Shown: one piece after another, positions 12,991 through 24,021 of the stretch
How the letters are laid out: each line of letters begins with the position of its first letter
Numbering within the stretch: position 1 is the stretch's first letter
NCBI RefSeq assembly: GCF_900112675.1
Contig: NZ_FOMQ01000024.1
Span: 1-36,431 of the forward strand
Length of the DNA: 36,431 bases
Reading direction: 5' to 3'
Origin: Paracidovorax konjaci
Lineage (GTDB): Bacteria; Pseudomonadota; Gammaproteobacteria; Burkholderiales; Burkholderiaceae_C
Position numbers and translations under genes: made by a program
The notes under the pieces: generated by a model
Seen by the model: only the letters and a program-made list of their open reading frames with translations
What the model was told of the DNA's origin: nothing
Database searches by the model: none

Positions 12991-13087
12991 CGGTAACAAA
13001 TGAATACGTCCGGAGTTGCGCACAGTAGGCTTCGGTGGTCGTCGTGCGTCCATTCCTTTTTCAGGCTGGACGGTGCGTTTGTTACCG
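12991..13087. promoter_or_regulatory. 10-bp inverted repeat in front of the collagen-like gene
   Basis: CGGTAACAAA at 12991-13000 recurs as its exact reverse complement TTTGTTACCG at 13078-13087, with 77 bp between. The second arm ends 43 bp before the ATG of the collagen-like gene. The arms could be two operator sites for a regulator that loops the promoter, or chance. No clear -35/-10 pair is visible between them. Confidence 0.35.
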
Positions 13088-13130
13088 CGTTTCCTGTGTC
13101 CGGGAGACGCTCCCTCGCGCGAGCCATCCC

Positions 13131-14354
13131 ATGAAAATCCGGTTTTCCCTTTTGCACGCGGCCATGGCCACGTCCTTGCTCGGTACGGCACCGTTGCTGC
13201 ATGCCGCCGACGTGCGGGTGACCGTGCCTCCCGGCGGCGCCTTCGCGGTGCGGAGCGCCAATGGCACCCAGGAAGTGCTGCGGGCCCAGGATGGCGGCAG
13301 TGTCCTGCTGCCGGCGGTGTCGTCGCAGCCCCCCGGCTCCAACGTCCTGTGCTTCGATAGCGCCACGGGCGCGTTGGGCCCTTGCGCCTCGGGGGTCGCG
13401 GTCGGGCCGGCAGGCGCGACGGGCGCCACGGGACCCGCAGGCGTCACAGGACCCGCAGGCGCCACGGGTGCAACGGGCACGACCGGCCTGGCAGGAGCGA
13501 CCGGAGCGACCGGAGCCACCGGAGCTGCGGGACCGACCGGCGCCACCGGCTCGACCGGCAGCCCGGGCGCGGCGGGACCAACCGGAGCGATGGGAACCAC
13601 GGGGCCGGCCGGCCCCACCGGGGCCACGGGCGCGACCGGCGCCGACGGCGCGACCGGGCCGGGCTTGGCCAACGGAACGGCCGGTGGACAGATCACCCTG
13701 ACCGCATCCACCGCTCCGTATGCGCCCCAGGTGCCCGTGACGCTGACCGGCGACGCCAGCCTCCAGAGCAATGGCACGCTGACCATCGGCACCGGTGCGA
13801 TCACCAGTTCCAAGATTGCCGACCTCAACGTCAACAACAACCATATCTCGGTCAACGCCATCACCACGAGCAAAGTGGCCAACGGCACCGTCACCGCCAG
13901 CAAGATGGCCGATCAGGCCATTTCAACGATCAAGCTGCTGGACGGTGCCGTGACGACCATCAAGCTCGCCGACGGTGCGGTCAGCGTAGCCAAGCTGCAG
14001 GGGGGCAACGGCGCCGCCGCGAACACCTATCTGCGAGCGGACGGTACCTGGGTTCAGCCCGGACAACTCGTGCAAGGAGGGGCGCTCTCATCCGGGACCA
14101 CCGTGCCCTCCACGCCGGCCGGAGGCGTGTTCTATTCAGCCACGGGAGGAAGTACGCTCACCCTGCCGGCGGCCAACGTGGCCGGGCAGACCCTGACCAT
14201 CATCACGTCGAACCCGGCAGGCGGGAATTCGGTGATCCTGCAGGCAGCCGGCAGCGACACGATCGTCTACAACGCAAGCACCGGCACGACGCTGCAGGGC
14301 GCGTACAAATACTCGCTGCTGAGCGACGGCAATGGCCGGTGGTTCGCGAACTGA
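13131..14354 (+). CDS. Exported collagen-like protein with tail-fibre-like C-terminal half
   Basis: A 407-residue predicted secreted or surface protein. A signal peptide covers about residues 1-26 ([20 protein letters not shown], cleavage after HAA). An N-terminal domain of about 65 residues has two cysteines (C74, C85). Residues 92-178 are 29 uninterrupted Gly-X-Y triplets, mostly GAT, GPA and GPT, which should form a collagen triple helix and make the protein a trimer. Residues 222-291 form seven degenerate ten-residue repeats of the type [11 protein letters not shown] segment [11 protein letters not shown] (298-308) and a beta-rich C-terminus follow, as in phage tail-fibre and other trimeric stalk proteins. 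The gene stands alone, 208 bp after lipA. A role in adhesion is inferred only; no anchor motif is visible. Confidence 0.85.
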
Positions 14355-14395
14355 CGGGGTTCCGTCTCGATCCGTCACTAGGCGCCGGAGCGCGT

Positions 14396-14515
14396 TCAGC
14401 GCGGCGCTCCGCGCCGGCCTTTCCTGCGGCCGCACCAGCGCACGATGCACCATGCCACGGCCAGCGGCGCGAACAGCGCCAGGATGGCCAGGCAGGCGTG
14501 GCCCATCGCTGCCAT
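14396..14515 (-). CDS. Predicted 39-residue single-span membrane protein
   Basis: A small frame of 39 codons starting MAAMGHACLAILAL. It has one hydrophobic segment at about 5-27, followed by a strongly basic tail (CGRRKGRRGAPR), so the C-terminus should stay in the cytoplasm. The ATG is one base after the stop of the 126-residue gene (TGACATG), the same junction type seen between kdpF and kdpA, which suggests translational coupling. I do not recognise the family. It is too short for statistics alone, so its support comes from context, topology and spacing. Confidence 0.55.
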   Translation of the reverse strand: MAAMGHACLAILALFAPLAVAWCIVRWCGRRKGRRGAPR

Positions 14516-14516
14516 G

Positions 14517-14897
14517 TCAGGCGCGGGCACGCTGCACCCCGCACGACGTGGGCTCAGCCCCCCGGCCCTCCCGGGCCGCATGAAAAACGCGGTCCACGCG
14601 GCCGAACTCCGCCGTCGGCAGTGCGGCCATGATCCGGTCCATGCATTCGCCGACTTCGGCCTCCCGCAGGTGCAGATGCACCGTGCACAGGGGCCGCACC
14701 GCATCCACCGACAGGCTGTAGGTGCCCAGCAGATGCCCCAGCGCCGCGTGCAGCCGCTGCCGCACGCGCAGCGCCGGTTCCCGGACCATCACGACGGGAA
14801 GAACCACCCACGGCGAGGCGGAGCGGGCGCAAGACAGGGCCGAAGGCGCGACGGCAGAACGCTCGTCTTCCTGAAGAAAAATGCGGTGCAGCAGCAT
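14517..14897 (-). CDS. Unknown 126-residue protein behind kdpE
   Basis: A 126-residue protein with GC-rich third codon positions like its neighbours. Residues 30-110 alternate predicted strands and helices: the strand WVVLPVVMVRE, helix RVRQRLHAALGHLLG, strand PLCTVHLHLRE, helix VGECMDRIMAALP and a final strand FGRVDRVFH. This pattern fits a small beta-alpha-beta sandwich, possibly ACT- or ferredoxin-like. No catalytic motif is seen and I do not recognise a named family. AAGG lies about 10 bases before the ATG. The promoter region upstream carries KdpE-like half-sites, and the gene lies 131 bp after kdpE on the same strand. A link to potassium homeostasis is inferred from that context. Confidence 0.7.
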   Translation of the reverse strand: MLLHRIFLQEDERSAVAPSALSCARSASPWVVLPVVMVREPALRVRQRLHAALGHLLGTYSLSVDAVRPLCTVHLHLREAEVGECMDRIMAALPTAEFGRVDRVFHAAREGRGAEPTSCGVQRARA

Positions 14898-14958
14898 GTT
14901 CGATGGGCCTTGCGCAGGGCGGTATGCCAGGCGAAGCGCCGGTGATGAAGCGGACTCC

Positions 14959-14991
14959 AGTCTAGGAAGACGCCCGTCAAAAGTGCGTAAA
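14959..14991 (-). promoter_or_regulatory. Putative KdpE box and promoter of the 126/39-residue gene pair
   Basis: On the minus strand TTTACGC (14991-14985), a 4-base spacer ACTT and TTGACGG (14980-14974) form two half-sites at an 11-bp period. Nine bases further is TAGACT (14964-14959), a possible -10 box. The layout and the core ACTTTTKACGGGCG match the kdp promoter at 23483-23547. The absence of a good -35 hexamer fits a promoter that needs an OmpR-type activator overlapping the -35 region. Confidence 0.6.
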
Positions 14992-15028
14992 AAAGCCGGT
15001 GCGGCGCATCAACCGCGCGTCAACGCGC

Positions 15029-15733
15029 TCACAGGGAAAGCCGGTAGCCCACGCCGGTCTCGGTGAGCAGGTGGCGCGGCTGCGCGGGGTCCGCTTCGAG
15101 CTTCTGGCGCAGATGACCCATGTAGATGCGCAGATAGTGGCTCTGGTCTGAGCGCGCGGGCCCCCACACCTCGCGCAGCAACTGGCGCTGGGTGATCACG
15201 CGCCCCGCGTTGGCCACCAGGACGGTGAGCATGCGGTATTCGGTGGGCGTGAGGTGCACGACGGCGCCGCCGCGCCGTACCAACCGCGCGGCGCGGTCCA
15301 CCTCGATATCGCCGAAGCGGAACAGAGGCTCCGCCGATTCGGGCTGCAGGCCCTGCCCCATCGCGGGCCGTGGCCGCCGCAGGTTGGCGCGCACCCGCGC
15401 CAGCAGCTCGCCCATGCCGAAGGGTTTGGTGAGGTAGTCATCGGCCCCCGCATCGAGCGCGGCGATCTTGTCGGCTTCGTCGGTGCGCGCGGAGAGCACG
15501 ATGACCGGCACGGCCGACCAGTTGCGGACATCGCGCAGCAGCGCCAGCCCATCGCCGTCGGGCAGGCCGAGGTCGAGCACCAGCAGGTCGGGTTGCCGCG
15601 TGCCGGCGGCCGAGAGCCCCTCGCGCAGCGTGGCGGCCTCGTGCACCTGCCAGCCCTCGTCCTCCAGCGCTCCACGGACGAAGCGGCGGATCTGGGGCTC
15701 GTCCTCGACAACGATCGCGGTGCGCAGGTTCAT
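15029..15733 (-). CDS. kdpE: Potassium-limitation response regulator
   Basis: A 234-residue OmpR/PhoB-family response regulator that activates kdp transcription when phosphorylated by KdpD. The receiver domain has the acidic pair E10-D11, phosphoacceptor D54 in LLVLDLGLPDGDG, S81 and K103. The winged-helix DNA-binding domain covers about 135-234 and ends in TGVGYRLSL. Its ATG overlaps the kdpD stop (ATGA), so the two are translated together. Confidence 0.96.
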   Translation of the reverse strand: MNLRTAIVVEDEPQIRRFVRGALEDEGWQVHEAATLREGLSAAGTRQPDLLVLDLGLPDGDGLALLRDVRNWSAVPVIVLSARTDEADKIAALDAGADDYLTKPFGMGELLARVRANLRRPRPAMGQGLQPESAEPLFRFGDIEVDRAARLVRRGGAVVHLTPTEYRMLTVLVANAGRVITQRQLLREVWGPARSDQSHYLRIYMGHLRQKLEADPAQPRHLLTETGVGYRLSL

Positions 15734-18546
15734 GGCGGTGAAGGCAGGTCGGATGGTTGGCGCGTCGGGTCTGGCAGCGCGGGTTCGGGCGGATCGGCCG
15801 CCTCGGGCACGGGGGGCGGCTCGCGCCGCGGCAGCGTGACGGTGAATTCTGCGCCCGGCCCGAGGGGTACGCCACCCGCGGCGATGTCGCCGCCGTGCGC
15901 CAGCACCACGGCCTTGCAGATGGCCAGCCCCAGGCCCACGCCCGGCGTGGCGGATTCGGCCTGCCCGCGCGTGAACTTGTCGAACAGCGTCTGCTCCTGC
16001 CCGCGCAATGCCGCCGGCAGGCCGGGGCCGTGGTCCCGCACACGGATCTGCAGGGTGCCCGGCAAAGCCTCGGCTGCGATGTCGATGGGCGGTGCGCCGT
16101 ACTTGGCGGCGTTTTCCAGCAGATTGACCAGCACGCGCTCGATCAGCACCGCATCGAACTCCACCAGGGGCAGGTCCAGCGGCAGCGATGTGCGCACTTC
16201 GAGCGTCCCCAGCGCGGGCCGCGCCGCGCGGATGGCCGAGCCCACGACCTCCTCCACGGACTGCCAGTCACGGCGCAGGCTCACGTGCCCCCCCGACAGG
16301 CCGCTTTCGAGCCGTGCCATGTCCAGCAGGTTGCTGACCAGGGCGTGCAGTTGGTGCGCCTGCTGCACGATGCTGCGCGAGGCGGCCTGCAGCGCTTCGC
16401 CGGGTTGCGCGGGCAGGGACTCGGCGAGGGCGATGAGCGCGGTGAGCGGCGTGCGCACATCGTGCGATATCGCGCCCAGCAGGGCGTTGCGCAGGCGCTC
16501 GGACTCCATGTCGACGACGGCGCGCTGCGCCACGTCCACGTAGTGCACGCGCTCCAGGGCGATGGCGATCTGGCGCGCCAGGGTGTCGAGCTGCCGTGCC
16601 TGTTCGGGAATGAGGAGCCAGCGCGGCCGCGCGGGCGCGAGCGCCAGCACGCCGCGCACGCGCATCGGCGCCGTGAGGGGCACGTAACGCCAGCTCTGCG
16701 CGGCCAGCGTGGCCGTTCCCAGCCCGGCGCTCTGCCCGTGGCGCAGCGTCCAGTCGGCCACGCTCGCATCGAAGCCGGCCGGGGCCTGCGCGGGCAGCAC
16801 GAGGCGGTCGCCTTCATCGAGCGGCAGCACCAGGGCATGCCCGCCGAAATGTTGCTGCACCGCCGCCGTGCCGATGTCCACGATCTGCGCCGCCTCCAGT
16901 GCCGCAGAGAGTTCACGCGTCAGCTCGAACAGCGAGCGCGTTCGCTGCTCCCGTCCAGCCGACACGCCGGCGGAAAACCGCAGGCCCGCCGTGAGCTGCC
17001 CGACCAGCAGCCCCACGCCCAGCATCACGGAGAAGGTGACGAGGTACTGCACGTCGCTCACCGCGAACGAGAGGCGCGGCGAGACGAAAACGAAATCGAA
17101 GGCCGCCACGTTGAGCAGTGCGGCCAGCGCGGCGGGGCCGCGCCCGAAGCGCATGGCCACACCGACCACGCCCAGCAGGTAGAGCATGACGATGTTGGTC
17201 AGCTCCAGCACGCCGGACAGCGGAAGCGCCATGAGCGTGACCGCCACGCTCGATGCCGCCGCCGCGCCGTAGCCGGGCCAGCGGGCGGCATGGCGTTCGT
17301 CGCCGTCATTCGCCGCCGCAGGCGTCGCCGGGGCCGTGTCCGCCGCCTGCCGCCAGGGGGATGCGGCCAGGCGTCGGCTGCTGCCGGGCTCCCCTGCTTC
17401 CACGATGTCCAGGGCTGGCGCGGCGGTGCCGATGGCCTGCGCCATCCCGGGCACGGGCCACCACCAGCGTCCCCGGCCTGCACGCGGGCGGGCACGCCCG
17501 ACCACCAGGGTGGCGCAATTGAGCTGGCGCGCGTGTTCCGCGAGCGCGGCCGCCACCGCGCCGCCGGTGAGCACGGCCGTCTCCGCGCCCAGGCTCTCGG
17601 CCAGTTGCAGCACGGCGAGCACGCGGTCGCGCTGCGGCGCGGGCAGCCGCTGCAGCCGCGGCGTCTCGACATAGGCCGCATGCCAGCGCACATTGAGCTG
17701 GCCGGCCAGGCGCGCGGCCGTGCGCACCGTGTGGGCCGCGTCTTCGTGCGGCCCCACGCAGGCCAGCAGCGCACCGGAGGTGTTCCACGCAGGCGGCACG
17801 CCATGTCCGCCGCCGGACTGCTCCACGCGCCAGCCGCGCACGTCGTCTTCCACGTGTTCGGCGGTGCGCCGCAGGGCGATCTCGCGCAGCGCGATGAGGT
17901 TGCCCTTGCGGAAGAAATTCTGCGCCGCGCGCTCGGCCTGCTGCGGCACGTAGACCTTGCCCGCGGCCAGGCGTGCGGCCAGTTCGTCGGGCGTGGCATC
18001 GACCAGCACGACCTCGTCGGCCTCGTCCAGCACCGTGTCGGGCACGGTCTCGTGCACGCGCACGCCGGTGATGGCGCCCACGGTGCCGTTCAGGCTCTCC
18101 AGGTGCTGCACGTTGAGCGCGGTCCAGACCTCGATGCCCGAAGCCACCAGCTCGTGCACGTCCTGCCAGCGCTTGGCGTGGCGCGATCCCGGCGCGTTGG
18201 AGTGGGCCAGTTCGTCCACGAGCAGCACCGCGGGGCGCCGCTGGAGGGCCGCGTCCAGGTCGAACTCGGGGCGCGCCCGCCCGCGGTGCTCCAGACTGCG
18301 CCGCGGCAGCACCGGCAGGCCTTCGAGCAAGGCGGCGGTCTCCGCACGGCCATGGGTTTCCACCACGCCGACGAGCACGTCGCGCCCGGCCTGCCGCTCG
18401 CGCTGCGCGGCGCCCAGCATGGACCACGTCTTGCCCACGCCCGCATTGGCACCGAAATAGATGCGCAGCTTGCCGCGCTGCACGCGCTGCTCCTCGGCGC
18501 GCATCTGCGCGATGAGGGCATCGGGATCGGGTCGGGTGTCGGGCAT
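15730..18546 (-). CDS. kdpD: Potassium/turgor sensor histidine kinase
   Basis: A 938-residue KdpD. The N-terminal KdpD domain has the Walker A motif GANAGVGKT (32-40) and DELAHSN (111-117). It is followed by a universal-stress-protein-like domain around 245-370, four membrane helices (DUF4118) around 420-510, a GAF-like domain, and the kinase core with phosphoacceptor H695 in ISHDVRTPL and a C-terminal HATPase domain with GLGLAICKAV. A GTG 36 bases upstream (18582) is an alternative start; MPDTRPDPDALIAQM matches the usual N-terminus better. Neither start has a strong ribosome-binding site. kdpC ends 58 bp upstream and kdpE overlaps the stop codon. Confidence 0.95.
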   Translation of the reverse strand: MPDTRPDPDALIAQMRAEEQRVQRGKLRIYFGANAGVGKTWSMLGAAQRERQAGRDVLVGVVETHGRAETAALLEGLPVLPRRSLEHRGRARPEFDLDAALQRRPAVLLVDELAHSNAPGSRHAKRWQDVHELVASGIEVWTALNVQHLESLNGTVGAITGVRVHETVPDTVLDEADEVVLVDATPDELAARLAAGKVYVPQQAERAAQNFFRKGNLIALREIALRRTAEHVEDDVRGWRVEQSGGGHGVPPAWNTSGALLACVGPHEDAAHTVRTAARLAGQLNVRWHAAYVETPRLQRLPAPQRDRVLAVLQLAESLGAETAVLTGGAVAAALAEHARQLNCATLVVGRARPRAGRGRWWWPVPGMAQAIGTAAPALDIVEAGEPGSSRRLAASPWRQAADTAPATPAAANDGDERHAARWPGYGAAAASSVAVTLMALPLSGVLELTNIVMLYLLGVVGVAMRFGRGPAALAALLNVAAFDFVFVSPRLSFAVSDVQYLVTFSVMLGVGLLVGQLTAGLRFSAGVSAGREQRTRSLFELTRELSAALEAAQIVDIGTAAVQQHFGGHALVLPLDEGDRLVLPAQAPAGFDASVADWTLRHGQSAGLGTATLAAQSWRYVPLTAPMRVRGVLALAPARPRWLLIPEQARQLDTLARQIAIALERVHYVDVAQRAVVDMESERLRNALLGAISHDVRTPLTALIALAESLPAQPGEALQAASRSIVQQAHQLHALVSNLLDMARLESGLSGGHVSLRRDWQSVEEVVGSAIRAARPALGTLEVRTSLPLDLPLVEFDAVLIERVLVNLLENAAKYGAPPIDIAAEALPGTLQIRVRDHGPGLPAALRGQEQTLFDKFTRGQAESATPGVGLGLAICKAVVLAHGGDIAAGGVPLGPGAEFTVTLPRREPPPVPEAADPPEPALPDPTRQPSDLPSPP

Positions 18547-18604
18547 GCGGTGGCGTTCGGGCGTCAGGGTGGCGGGGCACACGGCGCCCCGCAGTCTCGC
18601 GGAT

Positions 18605-23243: not shown

Positions 23244-23342
23244 TCAGAACTCCTCCGCGCAGATCAGCGCGAACACGAGGTACGCGAACAGCAGCACGGC
23301 CACGATGGCGCCGAAGCCGTAGAGCACTTCGATGCCGATCAT
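23244..23342 (-). CDS. kdpF: KdpF small stabilising subunit
   Basis: A 32-residue single-span membrane peptide ([20 protein letters not shown]...), matching KdpF in length, topology and position immediately before kdpA. It stabilises the KdpFABC complex. Its ATG overlaps the stop of the small upstream frame (ATGA), and its stop is one base from the kdpA ATG, so the three are probably translationally coupled. It is too short for ordinary ORF cut-offs. Confidence 0.88.
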
Positions 23343-23446
23343 CGTGCCTCTCCCCGCGGCCGGCCATCGTGGCGACCCAGGATCACCACGGCCTCGGCCA
23401 TGGCGATCCACAACACCGCGATGGCGGCAATCCACAGGACATCCAT
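23339..23446 (-). CDS. Small membrane protein leading the kdp operon
   Basis: A 35-residue frame, MDVLWIAAIAVLWIAMAEAV followed by a short tail rich in Arg, Gly and His. One hydrophobic span covers about 2-23. A GGAG ribosome-binding site lies about 7 bases before the ATG. The stop overlaps the kdpF ATG by ATGA. From memory, short membrane frames beginning MD.L are found ahead of kdpF in other bacterial kdp operons, often unannotated. It may be an extra accessory peptide of the pump or a coupled leader; the function is unknown. Confidence 0.72.
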   Translation of the reverse strand: MDVLWIAAIAVLWIAMAEAVVILGRHDGRPRGEAR

Positions 23447-23482: not shown

Positions 23483-23547
23483 ATTCTGGAAATCCGCCCG
23501 TAAAAAGTGTGCACAGCTTGCAGCGGGCCGCGTAAACGCGGCGTAAA
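23483..23547 (-). promoter_or_regulatory. kdp operon promoter with KdpE-like half-sites
   Basis: On the minus strand two exact TTTACGC copies (23547-23541 and 23536-23530) repeat at an 11-bp period. A third half-site TTTACGG (23504-23498) follows in the context ACTTTTTACGGGCGG. Nine bases further is CAGAAT (23488-23483), a possible -10, 37 bp before the first ATG. Direct TTTA-type half-sites at 11 bp match the architecture I recall for the E. coli KdpE site. The binding protein is therefore inferred to be the KdpE encoded in the same operon. Confidence 0.7.
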
Positions 23548-23691
23548 AAGCCTGGCGGCCACCGCGCTGCGCCCCAGGGGTTTGACCGCGCCTCGGTGCG
23601 GTGCCGGCCCCTTTCGACACCGTTTCGATGCGGGGGGCTTTCTACGCTGGCGGTTTGCCCGGCATGCCGCCAGCGCGGCGCTCCGCTCCCA

Positions 23692-24021
23692 ATGACCTTC
23701 CGCCCTTGTCTCACCGCCGCCCGGCTTCCGGCGGCCTTCTTCGCAGCCTGCCTGGCCCGTGCGCAGCCCACCGGCGACCTCGCCCTCAGCACGAACGACA
23801 CGCTCCTCGGCCAGGACCAGGACATGCTGAATGCGGCCGGCTTCGCCACGCGCCGCAGCCTCAAACCCGCCGTGCAGGGCGGCCTGGACTATGCCTTCGT
23901 GGACACCGGCTGGTACGTGGGCGCCTGGGCGGAACCGCTCCGCCGGGCGCCTCCAGCCGCTTGGGATGGTTTCACCCCCATGCCGCCGATTCCATTCAAT
24001 AGTTTGCTATTATTTTTATAG
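23692..24021 (+). pseudogene. 5' remnant of an outer-membrane protein gene (TIGR02001-like)
   Basis: An apparent signal peptide (MTFRPCLTAARLPAAFFAAC, cleavage after ARA) is followed by about 55 residues. The segment RRSLKPAVQGGLDYAFVDTG, then WYVGAWA, resembles the N-terminal strands of TIGR02001-type outer-membrane proteins. After WYVGAWA the similarity stops abruptly, and the frame runs into unrelated sequence and ends at a stem-loop. Intact members have well over 200 residues, so most of the gene is missing. It is read toward ptsI. There is no good ribosome-binding site. An intact short protein is possible but unlikely. Confidence 0.5.

Follow-up and report, generated by a model that had tools for sequence, protein, structure and literature searches.

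The two small genes that follow kdpE in the stretch of DNA analysed here are very likely a direct target of the response regulator KdpE, judging from their sequence. This stretch of 36,431 nucleotides (the window) belongs to contig C9 of a 5.08 Mb genome. The promoter of the gene pair and the kdp promoter have a 65-base layout in common, in which four half-sites stand at offsets 0, 11, 32 and 43 and are followed, after 9 bases, by a -10 element at offset 59. Direct control by KdpE is considered very likely because of this layout, its conservation in homologues, the matches of a profile free of kdp promoters to sites before kdpA, and the likeness to the promoter of E. coli. The gene pair would then very probably be switched on together with the potassium pump when potassium is short.

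The locus and its two promoters

On the minus strand of the window, the genes are arranged in the order kdpF, kdpA, a P-type ATPase gene in the place of kdpB, kdpC, kdpD and kdpE, and then the gene pair (Table 1). The window encodes a cognate KdpE whose DNA-recognition stretch, SHYLRIYMGHLRQKLE, is identical to that of E. coli KdpE (4kny). A 439-codon open reading frame (ORF) with a collagen-type repeat domain (13035-14354, plus strand) is convergent with the gene pair and ends near it. At the other end, a 35-residue ORF with one hydrophobic helix (23339-23446, minus strand) lies ahead of kdpF, the two overlapping by ATGA. Most of the 27 order-level kdp loci listed have a similar small ORF in this place, L244 having none, and the three that were tested match neither Pfam nor NCBIfam; the 35-residue ORF is possibly an undescribed small Kdp protein.

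Table 1. Positions of the features discussed in the window
Feature	Position	Strand	Basis or remark
Second gene of the pair, 44 residues	14396..14530	-	GTG start overlaps the end of the first gene
126-residue gene, first of the pair, undescribed family	14517..14897	-	18 accepted homologues
Gene-pair promoter, KdpE-type	14959..15023	-	Half-sites and -10; R1 and R2 profile matches
Gene-pair promoter, half-site TTGACGC	15023-15017	-	
Gene-pair promoter, half-site TTGATGC	15012-15006	-	
Gene-pair promoter, half-site TTTACGC	14991-14985	-	
Gene-pair promoter, half-site TTGACGG	14980-14974	-	
Gene-pair promoter, -10 TAGACT	14964-14959	-	
kdpE, response regulator	15029..15733	-	NCBIfam KdpE equivalog NF007820, 342.5 bits against a cut-off of 325
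kdpD	15730..18582	-	Pfam KdpD, 1.3e-93
kdp promoter	23483..23547	-	Half-sites 23547-23541, 23536-23530, 23515-23509 (degenerate) and 23504-23498
kdp promoter, -10 CAGAAT	23488-23483	-	
Decayed third array, divergent TorF-family porin gene	23583..23648	+	R2 E=2.4e-6, own genome
Truncated TorF-family porin ORF	23692..24021	+	TIGR02001 E=3.9e-7, 29.9 bits, cut-off 47.15

The gene-pair promoter reads TTGACGC-N4-TTGATGC-N14-TTTACGC-N4-TTGACGG-N9-TAGACT and the kdp promoter reads TTTACGC-N4-TTTACGC-N14-TGTGCAC-N4-TTTACGG-N9-CAGAAT, the TGTGCAC of the latter being a degenerate third half-site. The offsets of the kdp promoter are the same in all 17 genomes of the genus, and its third half-site is degenerate (4/6) in every one of them. 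In the gene-pair promoter, the proximal box is TTTACG/TTGACG and the distal box is TTGA-type; a pair of TTTA-type half-sites with an 11-base period is present, and TTTA does not run throughout. In both promoters the start of the distal pair lies 59 bases upstream of the -10, which would place the site at about -72 to -50 from the presumed start of transcription.

The original prediction rested on TTTACGC-N4-TTGACGG before the 126-residue gene and TTTACGC-N4-TTTACGC before kdp, and both are found exactly (14974-14991 and 23530-23547, minus strand). Its further observations, that the last half-site lies nine bases before the -10 and that a good -35 is missing, hold for both promoters; a consensus scan of 14340-15120 found no sigma-70 type promoter with a -35. 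It caught the downstream pair of the gene-pair promoter and missed the upstream pair, TTGACGC-N4-TTGATGC (15006-15023). The 14-base core that it singled out, ACTTTTKACGGGCG, does occur at 14971-14984 and 23495-23508, both on the minus strand, but it is not general in relatives: among the eight copies of the gene pair adjacent to kdpE, G000 and G399 have it unchanged, G403 has it with one altered base, and five lack it. The conserved feature is the set of half-sites with their spacing, not the 14-base core.

Counts of the patterns alone are weak evidence because the patterns were derived from the two sites themselves; the searches with profiles and in relatives, described below, are the real evidence for a shared layout. 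When two mismatches were allowed in the 14-mer, 3 of 100 shuffles of the window gave at least two matches, and no shuffle out of 100 gave at least three matches to the spaced pattern. With up to one mismatch, TTTACGCNNNNTTKACG occurs nowhere else in the 5.08 Mb genome than at these two sites; the backwards pattern gives 5 matches. Across the 17 genomes of the genus, TTKAYGCNNNNTTKAYG occurs 27 times, 20 of them at the kdp locus by position, and read backwards it occurs 18 times in all.

Conservation of the array upstream of homologues

The 126-residue gene is rare in the family. A single-protein search of 399 family genomes returned 8 matches at E<=0.001, two of which were rejected, and a profile search of the same number returned 15 matches, 8 of them accepted and seven not counted. 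L007 and L008 were rejected as long frames unlike the family. The profile search added G187 and G383 to G085; these three genomes represent one other genus, and in all of them the gene stands directly after kdpE. At least two genomes of that genus in the sample, G262 and G325, gave no match to the gene. Within Paracidovorax, 16 of the 17 genomes gave a match at E<=0.1, and the match in G190 (E=0.045) was rejected as it lies inside a 913-residue frame, which leaves 15 accepted homologues and two genomes in which the gene is missing. Eight of the 15 lie directly after kdpE, and seven lie elsewhere beside a divergent gene, which we take to be nth from its start, read by eye. The total is thus 18 accepted homologues, and the gene adjoins kdpE in 11. 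Weak second matches (L020-L026, E 0.003-0.1) and remote profile matches (L128-L134, E 0.0017-0.009) were kept outside the count; L129, on reading, is unlike the family.

When the upstream regions of the homologues were anchored only on CTAGA[CG]T, the half-sites at offsets 32 and 43 matched TTKAYR at 6 of 6 positions in all 18. Mean scores at offsets 11 and 0 were 5.61 and 5.50, against 2.0 at other offsets, and the first half-site (offset 0) is the variable one, scoring 5/6 in half of the promoters (9/18). The array is in register upstream of every accepted homologue, and the loss of the half-sites in relatives, by which the original prediction would have been refuted, was not seen. It is kept in the seven copies unlinked to kdp and in the three copies of the other genus, and in both groups the spacers differ while the half-sites stay; the layout is conserved in both genera and in both genomic settings. 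Of the eight kdpE-adjacent promoters, five are almost identical and are therefore not independent.

Searches between promoter classes

Three profiles were used for searches between promoter classes. R1 was built from the kdp promoters of 16 genomes, with the genome of the window excluded. In that genome, where 150 of 4123 first-look candidates were scored, it ranked the kdp promoter first (1e-18) and the gene-pair promoter second (E=0.11), with the third match at 0.48. R2 was built from the porin promoters of 7 genomes, again without the genome of the window, some of its training genomes also holding gene promoters that were searched. It matched the gene-pair promoter of the window at E=9.1e-5 and all eight kdpE-adjacent gene promoters at 7.8e-8 to 3.9e-4. 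On the unlinked gene promoters, it gave 3.8e-5 in G404 and 6.7e-4 in G405, both genomes being in its training set, and 0.68 in G408; the other four of the seven unlinked arrays (G328, G088, G406 and G409) were not matched at E<=3.

R3 combined 11 gene-pair and 6 porin promoters and excluded all kdp promoters. At E<=0.01 it gave 91 matches in 73 of 399 family genomes and 44 of 141 genera; since 13 candidates were scored per genome under strict filters, the absence of a match means little. Classification by tblastn covered 77 of the 91: 48, none of them in Paracidovorax, lie before kdpA, 6 lie before a TorF-type porin and 23 before neither. The other 14 were assigned by position as 8 gene-pair promoters, mainly from the training set, 3 porin arrays including the relic in the window, 2 kdp promoters of the genus, and G383:C7:184, which is unclassified. 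In the nine kdp clusters of the genus that lack the gene beside kdpE, with kdpE inside all nine stretches examined, R3 found no array after kdpE. It gave 16 matches in six of these clusters, by position at kdp and porin promoters; in the other three it matched nothing anywhere, and for that reason its silence after kdpE there says little.

Twelve places where R3 matched before other genes were examined, and none is claimed as a KdpE target. Four of the matches (L153, L156, L166 and L175, in four genomes of other genera) precede class-I glutamine amidotransferase-like genes, with Pfam GATase confirmed for two of them; such genes are a possible further target. At L203 the match precedes a gene whose product has, like KdpD, a DUF4118 domain, with a KdpE downstream, and the array there possibly serves autoregulation.

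The original prediction that the gene pair behind kdpE is a KdpE target is supported by this evidence, as the array is kept in relatives and the profile searches link the kdp and gene-pair promoters in both directions. Counting against it are the high E-value given by R1, the four unlinked arrays that R2 missed, the 23 classified R3 matches before neither kdpA nor a porin, and the rarity of the gene. Direct-repeat half-sites are common to the OmpR/PhoB family, and half-sites of the TTGACG type are unlike the TTTA(T/C)A recognised by KdpE of E. coli, so another regulator of that family with similar 11-base repeats might bind the gene-pair promoter and the likeness to kdp be a family resemblance. 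We consider this improbable, given that the gene-pair/porin profile matches mostly kdp promoters (48 of the 77 classified), that the gene so often adjoins kdpE (11/18), and that the exact spacing of the four sites is common with kdp.

The proteins of the gene pair

No member of the 126-residue family matched a Pfam or NCBIfam model; one of 16 touches NCBIfam XAC0095 at E=0.056 only. A weak likeness to a phage coat protein in a profile search (E=5e-4 across 51 residues, with none of its stretches passing by itself) was dismissed as probably fortuitous. Across the 16 aligned proteins 15 columns are invariant, AEFG among them, and G187 and G383, which are outside the alignment, read LEIG at that position. 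Read by eye, the family alignment (A4) gives beta-alpha-beta-beta-alpha-beta, which is taken as a lead only. The second gene encodes one membrane helix by eye, and a single hydrophobic stretch is present in the 14 copies aligned. In the window, it matched neither Pfam (searched inside a longer ORF) nor NCBIfam (searched without the start codon), KdpF included, whereas the real KdpF of the operon matches TIGR02115; the copy in G085 likewise gave no KdpF match. When profiles of the second gene and of the small ORF ahead of kdpF were compared, the result (45%) did not bear on whether they are related.

Purifying selection acts on the 126-residue protein in eight of ten pairwise comparisons (dN/dS 0.14-0.40). 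The values of the other two, 0.58 and 0.79, together with a second gene that looks damaged in G265 and G400 and a first gene missing in 2 of 17 genomes, would suit a reading in which the array is a KdpE promoter but its transcript works as a regulatory RNA or the two genes are no longer functional. This is very unlikely in view of the other eight comparisons and the 15 invariant columns. A KdpE-controlled pair of working proteins remains our preferred reading. Because neither protein has a Pfam or NCBIfam match, their role in potassium uptake can only be inferred; tentatively, the two products, the first small and soluble and the second a membrane peptide with one helix, might form a membrane-acting accessory or feedback part of Kdp.

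A third array before a porin gene

The window holds a third array, divergent from kdp, before a truncated porin ORF. It has decayed: in the alignment, half-sites have TCGA in place of TTGA and a small insertion is present. The porin remnant spans 109 codons, against 268 in the intact copy of G265, and its Pfam Gcw_chp match (1.6e-4) is below the cut-off. In nine relatives, an array immediately upstream of kdp but on the other strand stands before a longer TorF-family porin gene, whose identity was checked against Pfam and NCBIfam in one of the nine. R2 matched these nine arrays at 1.9e-18 to 1.0e-10, seven of the nine being its own training set. The other seven genomes of the genus gave no TorF match in the kdp-locus stretch examined.

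A rule by which every broken porin gene has a decayed array would suit the window but is contradicted by G404, where the porin gene matches in two frames and the array is intact; array and gene thus do not always decay together. That intact array and the near identity of five kdpE-adjacent promoters could be read as chance similarity or recent common descent without function, a reading that is almost certainly wrong and already contradicted by half-sites kept amid differing spacers in unlinked copies and another genus, and by successful cross-searches between promoter classes.

The layout in Burkholderiales and E. coli

The layout was examined at 33 kdp loci: 29 at the order level (own locus excluded), drawn from 67 genomes with KdpA, three of five at the class level, two having matched only part of KdpA, and that of E. 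coli K-12. Two loci had no distal pair scoring 10/12 and were dropped, leaving 31; the distal pair was chosen as the most upstream of the best-scoring ones. A second pair at +32 scores at least 9/12 in 26 of the 31 loci (mean 9.68). Other offsets average 4.65, and the highest of them, 8.00 at +43, shares a half-site. TANNNT is found at +59 in 21 of the 31, and at the next offset in 3.

At the published site, E. coli K-12 reads TTTATAC-tttt-TTTACAC-N14-TTTGCGA-aatc-TTTGCAG-N9-TACCCT, with the same offsets, and its distal pair is the published pair of KdpE half-sites. The most-upstream rule chose another upstream candidate in E. coli, and in the counts above this locus therefore stands against the layout rule. 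Among the Burkholderiales loci examined, kdp promoters commonly have this layout, as does that of E. coli K-12. An R3 match inside ybfA, beside kdp of E. coli K-12 (L222 1370-1392, E=0.0022 in 2.1 kb), is probably due to chance.

Proposed mechanism and significance

KdpD phosphorylates KdpE in potassium shortage. Phosphorylated KdpE would then bind two boxes in tandem whose starts are separated by 32 bases, one spanning roughly -72 to -55 and the other roughly -40 to -23, and each made up of two half-sites with an 11-base period; two KdpE dimers on the tandem boxes would be the simplest reading. The downstream box would take the place of the missing -35 and bring RNA polymerase to the -10, which lies nine bases further downstream. 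We infer KdpE binding, occupancy of the proximal box and activation by low potassium from this arrangement.

In a wider sense, we lean slightly towards the view that KdpE promoters, from Burkholderiales to E. coli, follow a rigid code of two tandem boxes 32 bases apart, each of two half-sites, in which the second box replaces the -35 and the -10 lies nine bases beyond it. In Paracidovorax and a related genus this code would run an envelope-wide potassium regulon of the inner-membrane pump, a TorF-type outer-membrane porin and the new pair of a soluble and a membrane protein. A conserved promoter code that predicts further targets would make the potassium regulon testable, and it would assign a part in potassium uptake to a porin of the outer membrane and to two small proteins so far uncharacterised.

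Comparison with known systems

In class II activation of the PhoB type, the box overlaps the -35 region close to the -10. The proximal box of the window promoters has a similar position, and its half-site sequence differs. TorF family putative porins (TIGR02001, Pfam Gcw_chp) are known as a family, and the gene that diverges from kdp in nine relatives and is cut short in the window belongs to it. We recognised no published account of the gene pair, of a KdpE-controlled TorF porin or of a second KdpE box among the papers that searches on KdpE sites, regulons, porins and Acidovorax listed; no passage on Kdp came up in PMC5343134 or PMC8041468 when these were searched by term.

In M. smegmatis, KdpE likewise activates kdp from an upstream site, but the available text of PMC5401905 describes a SigF promoter and, as the site, 22 bases of another sequence. 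In E. coli, the textbook regulator KdpE has essentially one described target: kdpFABC has been called its sole known target, to which adeP, uxaA and uxaC were added (PMC7657598, in the sections available). The main target there is kdpFABC, as here, and those sections of PMC7657598 hold no counterpart of the gene pair or the porin gene.

The closest comparison is the KdpE site of E. coli kdpFABC, given as TTTATA-N5-TTTACA with an 11-base period at -72 to -50 in the accessible part of PMC3264566. According to the same part, changing two bases of TTTA abolishes binding by E. coli KdpE and changing one base weakens it (PMC3264566); this effect is the main caution for our reading because the distal box of the gene-pair promoter is TTGA-type. 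The published site occupies the same place in the layout of the window promoters as the distal pair. Whereas that part of PMC3264566 describes the distal pair only, the second pair of E. coli, TTTGCGA-N4-TTTGCAG, 32 bases downstream, comes from the present analysis and suggests that a second KdpE box in the kdp promoter of E. coli may have been overlooked.
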